Both the position numbers and the translations under genes were made by a program. Shown here piece by piece: positions 30,988-40,939 of a DNA stretch of 64,000 nucleotides (position 1 is its first letter; each line of letters begins with the position of its first letter). Origin of the DNA: Methanoculleus taiwanensis (GTDB lineage Archaea; Halobacteriota; Methanomicrobia; Methanomicrobiales; Methanoculleaceae); assembly GCF_004102725.1 (NCBI RefSeq), contig NZ_LHQS01000001.1, forward strand, positions 124,001 to 188,000, given 5' to 3'. A model generated the notes under the pieces. That model did not search any database. It saw only the letters and a list, made by a program, of their open reading frames with translations, and was not told the origin of the DNA.

Positions 30988-31880
30988 GTGGCGGATCTGG
31001 AGTCTCTCACGGAAATCGGCGTAAACATCGGTGAAATACTCATAATTCTGCTTCTCACCGGTGCCGCCCTCGTTACCACAAGGGTCATTATGCGGCGCGG
31101 GCTCTGGCCGACAATCCTGAAGGCCGGATTGGCACCCGACAGAAGAATACTCTCCCTCGTTGAGCAGTTTGTCTACATCTTTCTCATCGTCTTCGGACTC
31201 CAACAGGTCGTCCGGTTCATCGTGCCGGAGGCTCCCGATCTTGATGACCTCTTCTTCATCATCTACTGGGTTGTAGGGCTCTACTTCGCCTTCCGCCTGA
31301 TCAGCGCCGCTGCGGACTGGTACTTGGCGATGGCCGCACCCCGGATCGAGGGCACAACGCATGAAAAATCGTCCCGAACGTGAAATACATCGTCATCATC
31401 GTCGTTTTTTCACTGGCGCACATCATCCTCCTCGATTACTTCGATATCAGCAGCTCGGCTCTGACCGCCGCCATCGCTTCCTTCGGCCTGGGCGCCCTGG
31501 TGGTGGGACTCGCCGCAGAGAACATCATCAACGACATCTTCAGCGGGATCGTGATCAGCATCGACCGCCCCGTCTGGGTCGGCGACCGCATCGAGATCCA
31601 GGAGCTGGAGACGCGGGGAGATGTGGTGGAGGTCGGCTGGCGGTCCACCCGCATTCTCACGAGAGACAAGCGGATGGTCGCCGTCCCCAACTCGCTCATC
31701 GGTTCGAATCTCGTAACGAACTACTCGGTGCCGGACAAGGTCTTCAGGGTCGAGACCGATGCGGTGATAGCATATGGGGCAGACATCGAATACGTCAGAG
31801 GCCTGATACTGGAGGCGATAGAGGAGCAGGACTGGGTGATGAAGGACAGACGGACACGGGCACTGACTGATATAACCTGA
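30988..31880 (+). pseudogene. MscS-family mechanosensitive channel, frameshifted and truncated
   Basis: Two abutting frames encode one MscS-type channel. 30988-31383 (GTG start) gives three TM helices and ends EGTTHEKSSRT. 31380-31880 supplies the next helix, the pore helix (ALTAAIASFGLGALVVGLAA), and the beta domain (RPVWVGDRIEIQE, NSLIGSNLVTNYS). Adding one base in the A-run at 31364-31368 would restore a continuous reading (EK-x-VPNVKYIVIIVV), so a single-base deletion is the likely cause. The C-terminal alpha/beta domain also ends early (ALTDIT), about 60 residues short of the usual length. A sequencing error could explain the frameshift but not the truncation. Translational coupling at the GTGA overlap is a weaker alternative. 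Confidence 0.75.
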
Positions 31881-33400: not shown

Positions 33401-33958
33401 ATGGCTGAAGTTATGTATGGACCGATGCAGCTCCTGGTCATCGGATTTCCGAACCCGGACTTCCACGGTCAGATTCGCCGTGCGCTCGGGTCGGTCATGG
33501 AGGAGGGCATTATCAGGCTGATCGACCTCCGGTTCGTGTACAAAGACGCAGACGGCAACGCCAGTGCCATGGAGGCTACCCAGCTCGACGATGAGGAGCG
33601 GGAGCGCTTCGGCGCCGCCGTCGGCGCACTCATCGGCCTCGGGGCCGGCGGAGCGGAAGGAGCACGGAAAGGCGCCGAAACCGGCGCCATGGCGGCCGCC
33701 CAGCAGACCTTTGGGATGACCGAGGAGGACGTTCAGAGGATCACCGACGCCATCCCGAACGACAGCGCCGCCGCCGTCTTCCTCATCGAGCACCTCTGGG
33801 CGAAAGACCTCAAGCAGGCACTCCGCGATGCCAACGGATACCTCATCGCCCAGGGCATGGTCACGCCGGAAGCCCTTGTCATGATAGGAGATGCACTGCG
33901 AGAAGCAGCTGAAGGTGCAGAGGAGGAGAAAAAACCAATGGCGGCACCGGCACGCTGA
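33401..33958 (+). CDS. DUF1269/DUF6325-type protein, copy 2
   Basis: This 185-residue protein shares the DUF1269-like plan. The N-terminal MQLLVIGFPNPDFHGQI has a beta-alpha form, and EEGIIRLIDLRFVYKDADGN is the central strand pair. A Gly/Ala-rich segment (AAVGALIGLGAGGAEGARKGAETGAMAA) replaces the hydrophobic hairpin. IPNDSAAAVFLIEHLWAKDL closes the fold. The glycine-rich segment is less hydrophobic than in copies 1 and 3, so this one may be soluble. AAGGGGGAA precedes ATG 33401. Confidence 0.82.
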   Translation: MAEVMYGPMQLLVIGFPNPDFHGQIRRALGSVMEEGIIRLIDLRFVYKDADGNASAMEATQLDDEERERFGAAVGALIGLGAGGAEGARKGAETGAMAAAQQTFGMTEEDVQRITDAIPNDSAAAVFLIEHLWAKDLKQALRDANGYLIAQGMVTPEALVMIGDALREAAEGAEEEKKPMAAPAR

Positions 33959-34604: not shown

Positions 34605-35141
34605 TCATGTAGCGGGTGGTGCGGCAACCTTGGCTGTATAGGACGCGATCTCACCCGACATCTCGTCGCCCAGCGTGAGCGTCACCACATTGGGATTGTA
34701 GCCGCTCATGCTGTTGACGACATCCTCGGTGTAGGTGTCTTCGAGCAACAGCAGAACAGCCGAGCTGTCGGGTGTCAGGGCATTACCGATATCTTCCAGA
34801 TCGCCTTTCTTGATGGGGCGACCGAGGTATTTGCCGGCGACGCCGCCGACCACAGCACCGCCGACTACCCAAGCCAGAAACCCGGCGGGACCGCCGATGA
34901 GGCTCAGGAGCCCGCCGGCAACCGCGCCAGCTGCCGCCCCGAGGCCACCCCTGCCCGGTTCGTGAAAATGCACTTTGCCCTGTTCGTCCTGCTCGACCAC
35001 GGCCTGGGCAATGATATCAAAGCCTTCCAGCAGGCCGGCGTTTTTGGCTTCGTTCAGGATGTTTCCTGCCGTCTTCTGGCCGTCAAAGACGAGCGCCAGA
35101 ATGTCATAAACTTCCGAAGAACCTGTTTCTGTTTTACCCAT
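34605..35141 (-). CDS. DUF1269 membrane-associated protein, copy 3
   Basis: This 178-residue protein has the family plan: EVYDILALVFDGQKTAGNIL at the N-terminus, a Gly/Ala-rich hydrophobic hairpin (GGLGAAAGAVAGGLLSLIGG, then FLAWVVGGAVVGGVAG) at about residues 70-105, and LTPDSSAVLLLLEDTYTEDV. ATG 35141 is preferred over ATG 35147 because AGGTGA then has normal spacing. A minus-strand TATA-like TTTATAAATTTG (about 35257-35268) is a likely promoter. Confidence 0.87.
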   Translation of the reverse strand: MGKTETGSSEVYDILALVFDGQKTAGNILNEAKNAGLLEGFDIIAQAVVEQDEQGKVHFHEPGRGGLGAAAGAVAGGLLSLIGGPAGFLAWVVGGAVVGGVAGKYLGRPIKKGDLEDIGNALTPDSSAVLLLLEDTYTEDVVNSMSGYNPNVVTLTLGDEMSGEIASYTAKVAAPPAT

Positions 35142-35327
35142 GTTCATTCACCTTTGCGGGGTTGGCCTGATGCACATGGTGGTATCGCACCTTTGAGCAA
35201 CAGATCCCATTTTTTACGGCCTGGATCCGTCGTCCAGAGCAACCTCAACCCACCCCAAATTTATAAAAATGTTTTTATGCTCGTGCCGTGTTGAATAAAT
35301 CCGGTTGATACGACCAGAAGAGAGAAG

Positions 35328-35648
35328 ATGACGGTCGCCCCTGCCGGTCTTCCATACCAAAGAAAAAACACTGGGGACGGCCGTACCCCGATACTCGCGA
35401 CTGGGATATCTAATGAACACCTGGTTCGGTGGGGTGAGTTCTACCTCTCACTTGACTTCCTTGAGCAGTGGGACGAGCTCCTTGGCCGGATGAACGCCGG
35501 CAAGCGCGGCCGGCCGTGTCAGTATCCTGAGCCGTTCATCGAGTGGATGGCCTGCATTCACATCTTCCTGCAGATGCCCTATCGCCAGATGGAAGGGTTT
35601 ACCCGAAAGCTCGCGACCGCCTTGCAACCATCGGAGTCATGGTGGTGA
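35328..35648 (+). mobile_element. Transposase fragment, IS5/DDE type, N-terminal part only
   Basis: The 106-residue frame resembles the N-terminal part of IS5-group transposases: WGEFYLSLDFLEQWDELLG, GKRGRPCQYPEPFIEWM, and LQMPYRQMEGFTRKLA. The DDE catalytic core is missing. The frame runs into opposite-strand sulfatase remnant sequence near 35625-35680. No terminal inverted repeats were found. It is a dead remnant that probably marks the deletion or insertion that damaged the sulfatase gene. Confidence 0.7.
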
Positions 35649-39031: not shown

Positions 39032-40939
39032 ATGCACACCCCGACCGACACGCCGATACCGTTACTCCGGCCCCGGCGCGCCTATGCCTGGTGGAGAATT
39101 CTCCTCCTGGCGCTTCTCCTGTGCGTACTCACAGGCACGGCCGCTGCCCAGCAGGCACAGAACGCCAGCGTGCAGGAGCTGACCGGGCGAATAGAACCGA
39201 ATCAGGTTATTATTTATGATCTCCCCGGCCTGCAGGCGGGAGAGACCCTCTCCGTCTATGCCAACGGGACAGGGGGAGACCTTGACCCATTCCTGGCTCT
39301 CGCGAATACGAGCCTGACCCGGGGAGAGGCACGCCGGGAGTTTGCCACAGAGGTCAATCGGTCTATCGCCGAAGGGCGTGATCCGCTCCAGGTGATCCCG
39401 GAGATTGCTGACCGATACTTCCTTGCATGGGACGACGACTCCGGAGCGGGCTACGATGCAGCAGTTCAGTATACGATCCCGGCCGATGGTGATTACCTGC
39501 TGATCCTGTTCAGCTCCCCGGCGAAGGAGAATACATTCGGCACCTACCGGCTGCTGGTCGGCATCGACGCGCCGCAAGTCCTGACCGGGCAAGCGGAGCC
39601 GACCGGTGCCGCCATCGCCGTACTGGACAGAGATGCATCCGAGGTGGGCATGGCCGTGCAGGAGGTCGACGGGACGCTGACGGCGAACAGGACGTCGACA
39701 TTCTACACCTTAAACCCCGTCACAGAGGGCGATACCTTCTACGCCTTCATCGAGGCGACGTCCGGGGACCTTATCCCCGTTCTCGTTTTGCGGGACTTTG
39801 GCGGCAAACCCCTGAGCGCAGGCGTTCCGGCCGGAGACGGCATTACTGCCACCCTCGAGTACACCTTCGACGATGACAGCGAGGGCAACGAACTCGAGGT
39901 CTTCAGCCGCACCCGGAACGAAACCAACACGACGGGTGATTACCGGCTGCTGGCAGGGCTCAACGTGCCTGCCGTGCTGACGGGCGAGGCGGCACCGACG
40001 GCCCCCCGGCTCCTCCAGGAGCCTATCCGGGTGATGGTCGGGTTCGAGCTCGACCAGATCACGACGGTTGACCAGCAGGCCGAGAACTTCGGTGTGGTGG
40101 GCAACATCTGGATGCGGTGGACCGATCCGGCGCTGGCGTTCAGCCCGGACGAGTGCAACTGCCAGTTCAAAGTCTACCGAAGCGTCGAAGAGTTCGTGAG
40201 TGCCGAAGGGCAACGGTGGCCTGAGTTCACCCTCTTCAACCAGCAGGAACGGCGCTGGACGCAGAACCAGATCATCGTGGTTCGTCCCGACGGCACGGTC
40301 ACCTACTACGAGCGGTTCTGGACGCTCCTGCAGGCGCCGGACTTCAACTTCAGGCAATACCCGTTCGACACCCAGGACTTCTACGTGAGAATCGACTCCC
40401 TCTACCCCGAAGAGTTCTACGTCTACGTGCCCTGGGAGGAGAAGACCACCGTCGGCGGGCAGCTCGGTGAAGAGGAGTGGTACATCACCGACTACAACGC
40501 CAACGTGACCAGCATCCAGATCAACACACAGAACTCCCGCTACTCTTTTTACTTTGAGGCAGCCCGCCACCTGACCTTCTACGTCCTGCGGATCCTCCTC
40601 CCGATCCTGATAATCATCCTCCTGACCTACGTCACCTTCCTCCTCAAGGATTACGGGAAGCGTGCCGATGTGGCGAGCGCGAACCTCCTCCTCTTCATCG
40701 CCTTCAACTTCACCATCGCCGGCGACCTGCCGCGCCTCGGGTACCTGACGTTCCTCGACTCGATCCTGGTAACGACATTCGTGGTCACCGGCATCACGGT
40801 TGCCTACAATCTCTACCTGAAGTGGCTGGCCACGGAGCGGCAGAAAGAGATCGCGGAAAAGATCGACCGGGTCATGGTCTGGCTCTATCCTGCGACCTAC
40901 ATCGGAGCGCTCATACTGATAGCGCTCTTCTTCCCCTAG
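39032..40939 (+). CDS. Pentameric ligand-gated ion channel homologue with two extra N-terminal domains
   Basis: This 635-residue protein has a signal peptide (about 1-39). Two related beta-rich domains follow at about 45-178 and 183-312; each ends with a DGDYLLIL/TGDYRLL strand, resembling PPC-type sandwiches. The Cys-loop receptor module spans 325-635. Its extracellular part contains VGNIWMRWTD, YERFWTLLQ and the loop YPFDTQ (443-448), the hallmark of the family; prokaryotic members lack the disulfide. Four TM helices follow: M1 516-538 (LRILLPILIIILLTYV), M2 about 545-563, M3 about 577-598, M4 about 614-634. Such channels are rare in archaea. The layout recalls bacterial DeCLIC, which also has N-terminal domains. 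The ligand and ion selectivity are unknown. CNC at 375-377 may form a local disulfide or bind metal. Confidence 0.88.
   Translation: MHTPTDTPIPLLRPRRAYAWWRILLLALLLCVLTGTAAAQQAQNASVQELTGRIEPNQVIIYDLPGLQAGETLSVYANGTGGDLDPFLALANTSLTRGEARREFATEVNRSIAEGRDPLQVIPEIADRYFLAWDDDSGAGYDAAVQYTIPADGDYLLILFSSPAKENTFGTYRLLVGIDAPQVLTGQAEPTGAAIAVLDRDASEVGMAVQEVDGTLTANRTSTFYTLNPVTEGDTFYAFIEATSGDLIPVLVLRDFGGKPLSAGVPAGDGITATLEYTFDDDSEGNELEVFSRTRNETNTTGDYRLLAGLNVPAVLTGEAAPTAPRLLQEPIRVMVGFELDQITTVDQQAENFGVVGNIWMRWTDPALAFSPDECNCQFKVYRSVEEFVSAEGQRWPEFTLFNQQERRWTQNQIIVVRPDGTVTYYERFWTLLQAPDFNFRQYPFDTQDFYVRIDSLYPEEFYVYVPWEEKTTVGGQLGEEEWYITDYNANVTSIQINTQNSRYSFYFEAARHLTFYVLRILLPILIIILLTYVTFLLKDYGKRADVASANLLLFIAFNFTIAGDLPRLGYLTFLDSILVTTFVVTGITVAYNLYLKWLATERQKEIAEKIDRVMVWLYPATYIGALILIALFFP

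Follow-up and report, generated by a model that had tools for sequence, protein, structure and literature searches.

A gene for a DeCLIC-type pentameric ligand-gated channel with conserved calcium-site positions in the methanogen Methanoculleus taiwanensis

We analysed a 64-kb stretch of DNA from Methanoculleus taiwanensis (the window, by which we mean the whole stretch) and found in it an intact gene for a pentameric ligand-gated ion channel (pLGIC) of the DeCLIC type, with a product of 635 amino acids. All Ca2+-contact positions published for DeCLIC are kept in the encoded protein, and we therefore see in it a new branch, found in archaea, of an already known calcium-regulated type, not a new kind of channel. 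By homology, the protein is probably a homopentameric cation channel that external Ca2+ keeps shut and that opens when Ca2+ is depleted.

A study of 2004 described pLGICs with MCP-N and Cache domains in the archaeal genus Methanosarcina (PMC549065), and in 2016 pLGICs were reported from a wider range of archaea (PMC4795631). DeCLIC is so far the sole pLGIC bearing an N-terminal domain to have been characterised structurally (PMC12664993). Among open-licence PMC papers we found none on a DeCLIC type with N-terminal domains (NTDs) in archaea, nor on a pLGIC from Methanoculleus. That an archaeal branch under purifying selection has kept every Ca2+-contact position, with an overall identity of 38%, speaks for the combination of NTDs and calcium as a lasting design, as opposed to a peculiarity of a single bacterium. 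The branch also offers homologues for asking what role a channel resembling neurotransmitter receptors has in a methanogen.

Domain layout and predicted structure

The open reading frame (635 codons, ATG start) lies exactly at positions 39032-40939 of the window, on the forward (+) strand, to which all coordinates within the channel gene refer. Its identity is supported by both sequence and fold matches, and its translation holds the YPFDTQ (residues 443-448) and CNC (375-377) motifs where the original prediction had placed them. A hydrophobic helix in the model at residues ~16-43 (39077-39160) is the putative signal peptide or leader; DeCLIC also has a leader, which is aligned from its residue 7. 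Two NTDs follow, both assigned from the model and from their matches to DeCLIC: NTD1 (residues ~45-185; 39164-39586), a jelly roll that holds two inserted helices (99-113 and 118-129) in the model, and NTD2 (~186-322; 39587-39997), a second jelly roll. A signal peptide followed by two mutually similar beta-domains had been predicted, and NTD1 and NTD2 do resemble each other (BLASTP E 2e-11, 30% identity). MCP-N or Cache domains gave no Pfam match in the window protein at E up to 1.

The remainder of the protein is the pLGIC core that had been recognized in the original reading. The canonical extracellular domain (ECD; residues ~328-511; 40013-40564) contains a complete pLGIC ligand-binding domain at residues 329-507, matched by Pfam Neur_chan_LBD (PF02931) with 50.8 bits (cut-off 26 bits). 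In the transmembrane domain (TMD; residues 512-635; 40565-40936), which is ~46% (45.5%) identical to that of DeCLIC, the monomer model has four helices, M1-M4, at residues 514-537, 541-565, 574-601 and 605-633. The YPFDTQ Pro-loop (40358-40375) is evident from the translation and the alignment, and the M1 proline, P524, is conserved in the alignment. The disulfide that flanks this loop in animal Cys-loop receptors is absent, the only cysteines being residues 31, 375 and 377, none of which flanks residues 443-448.

The monomer was modelled by AlphaFold2 with 30 sequences. The model of the whole protein (mean pLDDT 84.3) shows the leader helix, two beta-domains, an extracellular beta-sandwich and four transmembrane helices. 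DeCLIC, which had been named as the nearest described type, is indeed the top match by sequence as well as by fold. In the PDB it is matched over residues 12-632 (phmmer E 4e-129), and the runners-up match the channel core only (sTeLIC, E 1e-80; GLIC, ~1e-26). Identity to DeCLIC is 38% over residues 45-635, with 34% in NTD1, 30% in NTD2, 42% in the ECD and 46% in the TMD. The predicted fold matches DeCLIC best (Z 33.0, 571 residues aligned, 3.5 Å), and a Foldseek comparison of the two gave E 4e-64 and a TM score of 0.81. The layout had been proposed to be distinct from known types; this claim is rejected, as DeCLIC matches end to end, both NTDs included.

For the N-terminal region alone, DeCLIC is the only significant PDB match, and a profile search retrieves it too (E 1.6e-64). 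The NTD pair modelled by itself has a pLDDT of 90.9 and matches DeCLIC with Z 23.8, and the isolated NTD1 of DeCLIC (6v4b) matches the NTD model with Z 21.5 and 1.9 Å over 149 residues. The next fold matches are Tk-SP (Z 11.8) and the collagen-binding/PPC domains of collagenases (Z 10.6-11.7). The earlier suggestion of PPC-type domains is borne out at the level of the fold (Z 10.6-11.8), a relation that the DeCLIC authors have reported too (PMC12664993). The Pfam PPC model (PF04151) has no match in the window protein itself; of 30 relatives, 6 have a weak one, the best with E 6e-4.

Calcium-site, pore and cysteine positions

Four ion sites per DeCLIC subunit were assigned in a cryo-EM study in 2025, with Sites 1 and 3 as the firm ones (PMC12664993). 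We mapped them by residue number in an alignment of DeCLIC, the window protein and 29 relatives, and all the coordinating residues proved identical between the two channels. Site 1 of DeCLIC (D76, P77, D123, D124 and Y129) corresponds to D85, P86, D135, D136 and Y141, and Site 2 (G126 and G128) to G138 and G140. The D85-P86 pair (39284-39289) is the same in all 30 aligned sequences (sites as in PMC12664993). Within the stretch D135-D136...G138...G140-Y141 (39434-39454), which contributes to Sites 1 and 2, the two aspartates are likewise invariant (30/30) and the tyrosine is present in 25 of 30. Only 10 of the 141 columns of NTD1 are invariant, and the four Site 1 positions D85, P86, D135 and D136 are among them (chance ~1e-5). 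Structural constraint alone could contribute to this invariance.

Site 3 (E347, P434, F436 and L477 in DeCLIC) corresponds to E351, P436, F438 and L478, and Site 4 (Q476, G478 and E480) to Q477, G479 and E481. E351, in the beta1-beta2 loop (40082-40084), is kept as glutamate in 29 of 30 aligned sequences; P436 and F438 (40337-40345) align with the residues that provide the backbone ligands in DeCLIC. Loop F, Q477-L478-G479-E480-E481-E482 (40460-40477), which carries residues of Sites 3 and 4, is identical to Q476-E481 of DeCLIC. The glutamate triplet of this loop, for which a role in guiding Na+ through a side path of DeCLIC has been proposed (PMC9897478), is thereby kept as residues 480-482. 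Some Chloroflexota types (L014, L015, L018, L019 and L025) keep the acids of Site 1 and have a GEDEF loop F and no PDF motif; Sites 3 and 4 are partly changed in them, so their calcium response may differ.

The pore face of M2 (40667-40711) is formed by D546 (2'), A550 (6'), L553 (9'), A557 (13') and F560 (16'), as deduced from an ungapped alignment of M2 with DeCLIC, sTeLIC and GLIC, with prime numbering by the GLIC convention. Position 2' is D or E in all relatives that have an M2, whereas GLIC has T there and its acid at -2'. Strong conservation of M2 is seen throughout the archaeal and Chloroflexota sequences. From the acidic 2' residue and from DeCLIC we infer that the pore is selective for cations.

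The CxC pair C375-N376-C377 (40154-40162), which aligns with CGC in DeCLIC, had been singled out in the original prediction as a possible metal or redox site. Its cysteines are the only ones outside the leader in the window protein, as in most family members. Both are present in 27 of the 30 aligned sequences and neither in 3, and both are missing from a relative outside that alignment (L051). In a subclade of family f4 (L046, L048, L049 and L051) the pair is replaced by E-G-S or E-G-V. Since the cysteines lie one residue apart and are gained or lost together, a joint role is suggested, for example in metal binding, in redox chemistry or as a strained disulfide.

Distribution, selection and gene neighbourhood

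pLGICs occur in 52 of 232 genomes of the order Methanomicrobiales, and fall into two kinds that are far apart in the tree. The view that such channels are uncommon in archaea holds only loosely given this number and the archaeal examples already published (PMC549065, PMC4795631). NTD-bearing DeCLIC types are present in 27 of 231 genomes of the order, in 6 of 40 genera; one of the relatives (L010) is from Methanoculleus strain FWC-SCC1. The second kind are short pLGICs without NTDs, mostly of 300-370 amino acids and nearly all in family f6 (L052-L054, L058-L066 and L068). Outside the order, DeCLIC types were found in one Methanotrichaceae and two Methanophagales genomes, and in Chloroflexota.

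In a tree of the channel core, the Methanomicrobiales sequences and the one from Methanotrichaceae form one group (22 rows, support 100/99). The Methanophagales copies group with DeCLIC and sTeLIC (94/91), with Chloroflexota nearby. The short archaeal forms make up a separate group (100/99), and orthology with them is rejected. A single archaeal origin was not found in this tree, which has two changes of archaeal label where long branches meet; as such branches meet around DeCLIC/sTeLIC and GLIC, we make no claim about the deep branching order. If sTeLIC truly nests among NTD-bearing forms, for which the support is weak, the missing NTDs of its solved chain could reflect a loss.

Comparison of the window gene with three near relatives gave omega values of 0.11-0.28 in each domain (0.11-0.16 in the TMD), and the NTDs are therefore maintained too. 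Beyond the channel genes, an NTD profile found no stand-alone NTD module in 231 genomes, save one decayed NTD1 fragment (L067:1504-1707); the genome concerned (G011) has an intact copy as well (L032). In another genome (G097; L017:5887-7721, which is the same as L050) the NTD and channel halves are in different, overlapping frames, the frameshift sitting at the NTD/ECD junction; this is either a real split or an assembly error. A third genome (G064) has two DeCLIC-type copies (L016 and L020), 80% and 70% identical to the window protein, and the nearer one sits outside the conserved gene order.

Directly upstream of the channel gene is a gene for an AI-2E-family permease (PF01594; 37839-38870), which was absent from the original prediction. 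Downstream follow genes for a methyltransferase-like protein, malate dehydrogenase, EF-1 beta, an amino-acid-kinase protein and a PLD-domain protein; the methyltransferase-like protein (no Pfam match), malate dehydrogenase and EF-1 beta were named by eye. The TMEM175 gene (PF06736, 91.8 bits) lies ~6 kb upstream of the channel gene, and a fragment with an MscS core (31380-31880, +; ~166 amino acids; PF00924 match at 31521-31727) ~7 kb upstream. These two and the PLD-domain protein are the neighbours that had been described. The MscS fragment lacks most N-terminal transmembrane helices and ends early, and the genome has five other PF00924 matches elsewhere. Near the TMEM175 gene are two small proteins of the DUF1269 type (33401-33958, +, and 34605-35147, -), one of which is also matched by DUF6325. 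A fragment of a transposase DDE domain (PF13737) lies at 35328-35648 (+).

The order of permease, methyltransferase-like gene and malate dehydrogenase recurs in close relatives only; in other families the channel gene has none of these neighbours. In two genomes without the channel (G046 and G050), the permease and methyltransferase-like genes are only 53-67 bases apart, so that the channel occupies a presence/absence slot. A functional operon with the neighbours is not supported by this pattern. Since this gene order does not extend beyond close relatives, little about function can be read from the neighbours, and the role in ion or osmotic response that had been suggested from them finds no support here.

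Proposed mechanism and relation to known channels

We infer pentamer formation, cation conduction, Ca2+ inhibition and the physiological trigger by homology to DeCLIC, for which closure held by Ca2+ and opening on Ca2+ depletion have been reported (PMC9897478, PMC12664993). The gene product would be the subunit of an archaeal homopentamer, with two jelly-roll NTDs lying outside the membrane, a canonical extracellular domain and a four-helix pore domain. External Ca2+, bound at NTD1 and at the subunit interface of the beta1-beta2 loop and loop F, would stabilise the closed state. A drop in external Ca2+ would loosen the NTDs and loop F, and in the loosened state the pore, with its 9' Leu and 16' Phe gates and acidic 2' ring, would conduct monovalent cations. 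With identities of 38% overall and 30-34% in the NTDs, the modulators could differ from those of DeCLIC. As methanogens of this group lack an outer membrane, the surroundings of the NTDs differ from the periplasm of DeCLIC.

The gating of DeCLIC is itself unsettled, in that most cryo-EM structures stay closed without Ca2+ (PMC12664993). The PDB contains open structures at pH 5, some with EDTA and some without it, and protons may therefore matter. This observation lends some weight to the main alternative, which we consider unlikely: a channel with the DeCLIC fold in which Ca2+ is merely structural, and which is triggered by protons, by an amine or organic ligand in the extracellular domain, or by a surface partner bound to the NTDs. 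The fold match of the NTDs to Ca2+-binding PPC/collagen-binding domains fits such a channel, as does sTeLIC, related in its core, which is 'gated by alkaline pH' and binds 4-bromophenethylamine (PDB entry titles). However, conservation is not limited to the structural Site 1; the interface residues of Site 3, which are tied to Ca2+ inhibition in DeCLIC, are kept too. Control by redox state or metal, with C375-x-C377 tuning the gating alongside Ca2+ in anaerobic methanogens, seems doubtful to us; on this reading, acidic or small residues have taken the place of the pair in one archaeal subclade.

It is very improbable that the protein is a pLGIC-like sensor that has stopped conducting, or the product of a decaying gene. 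The patchy occurrence of the gene, together with the decayed fragment and the frame-shifted copy in relatives, would be in line with decay, but the window copy is intact, its TMD has low omega, and the conservation of M2 extends from archaea to Chloroflexota. We attach practically no credence to the idea that the N-terminal region merely belongs to the standard ligand-binding domain. That domain is already complete at residues 329-507, the NTDs match NTD1 and NTD2 of DeCLIC and fold separately when modelled, and no support for the idea was found in the analysis; residues 45-312 are extra to the domain, as originally proposed. A calcium-regulated cation channel of the DeCLIC type thus remains our preferred reading.

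The window protein can be placed among known systems as follows. With the PPC/collagen-binding domains (Tk-SP, 3afg; ColG, 1nqj) it shares the jelly-roll fold of the NTD lobes, but at 13-18% identity, and those domains belong to secreted proteases and not to a channel. The Methanosarcina pLGICs (Tasneem et al., PMC549065) are also archaeal and also have extra N-terminal domains; theirs are MCP-N and Cache, whereas those of the window protein match DeCLIC. GLIC from Gloeobacter (PDB 3eam) has the same pLGIC core fold (Z ~26 over 300 residues), but is 28% identical, lacks NTDs and the EEE of loop F, and has its acid at -2' instead of 2'. sTeLIC (PDB 6fl9) shares the channel core (42% identity), the loop-F sequence QLGEEEW and the acidic 2' residue, but its solved chain is without NTDs and without the CxC pair. 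DeCLIC, from a Desulfofustis deltaproteobacterium (PDB 6v4a, 6v4s, 7q3g and 9eva), has in common with the window protein the leader, NTD1, NTD2, the extracellular domain and M1-M4, as well as the fold, the coordinating residues of the four sites, the loop-F EEE, the CxC pair, the acidic 2' residue, 9' Leu and 16' Phe. The window protein differs from it in its archaeal host, in having D and not E at 2', and in lacking an 8-residue insertion that DeCLIC has in NTD1.
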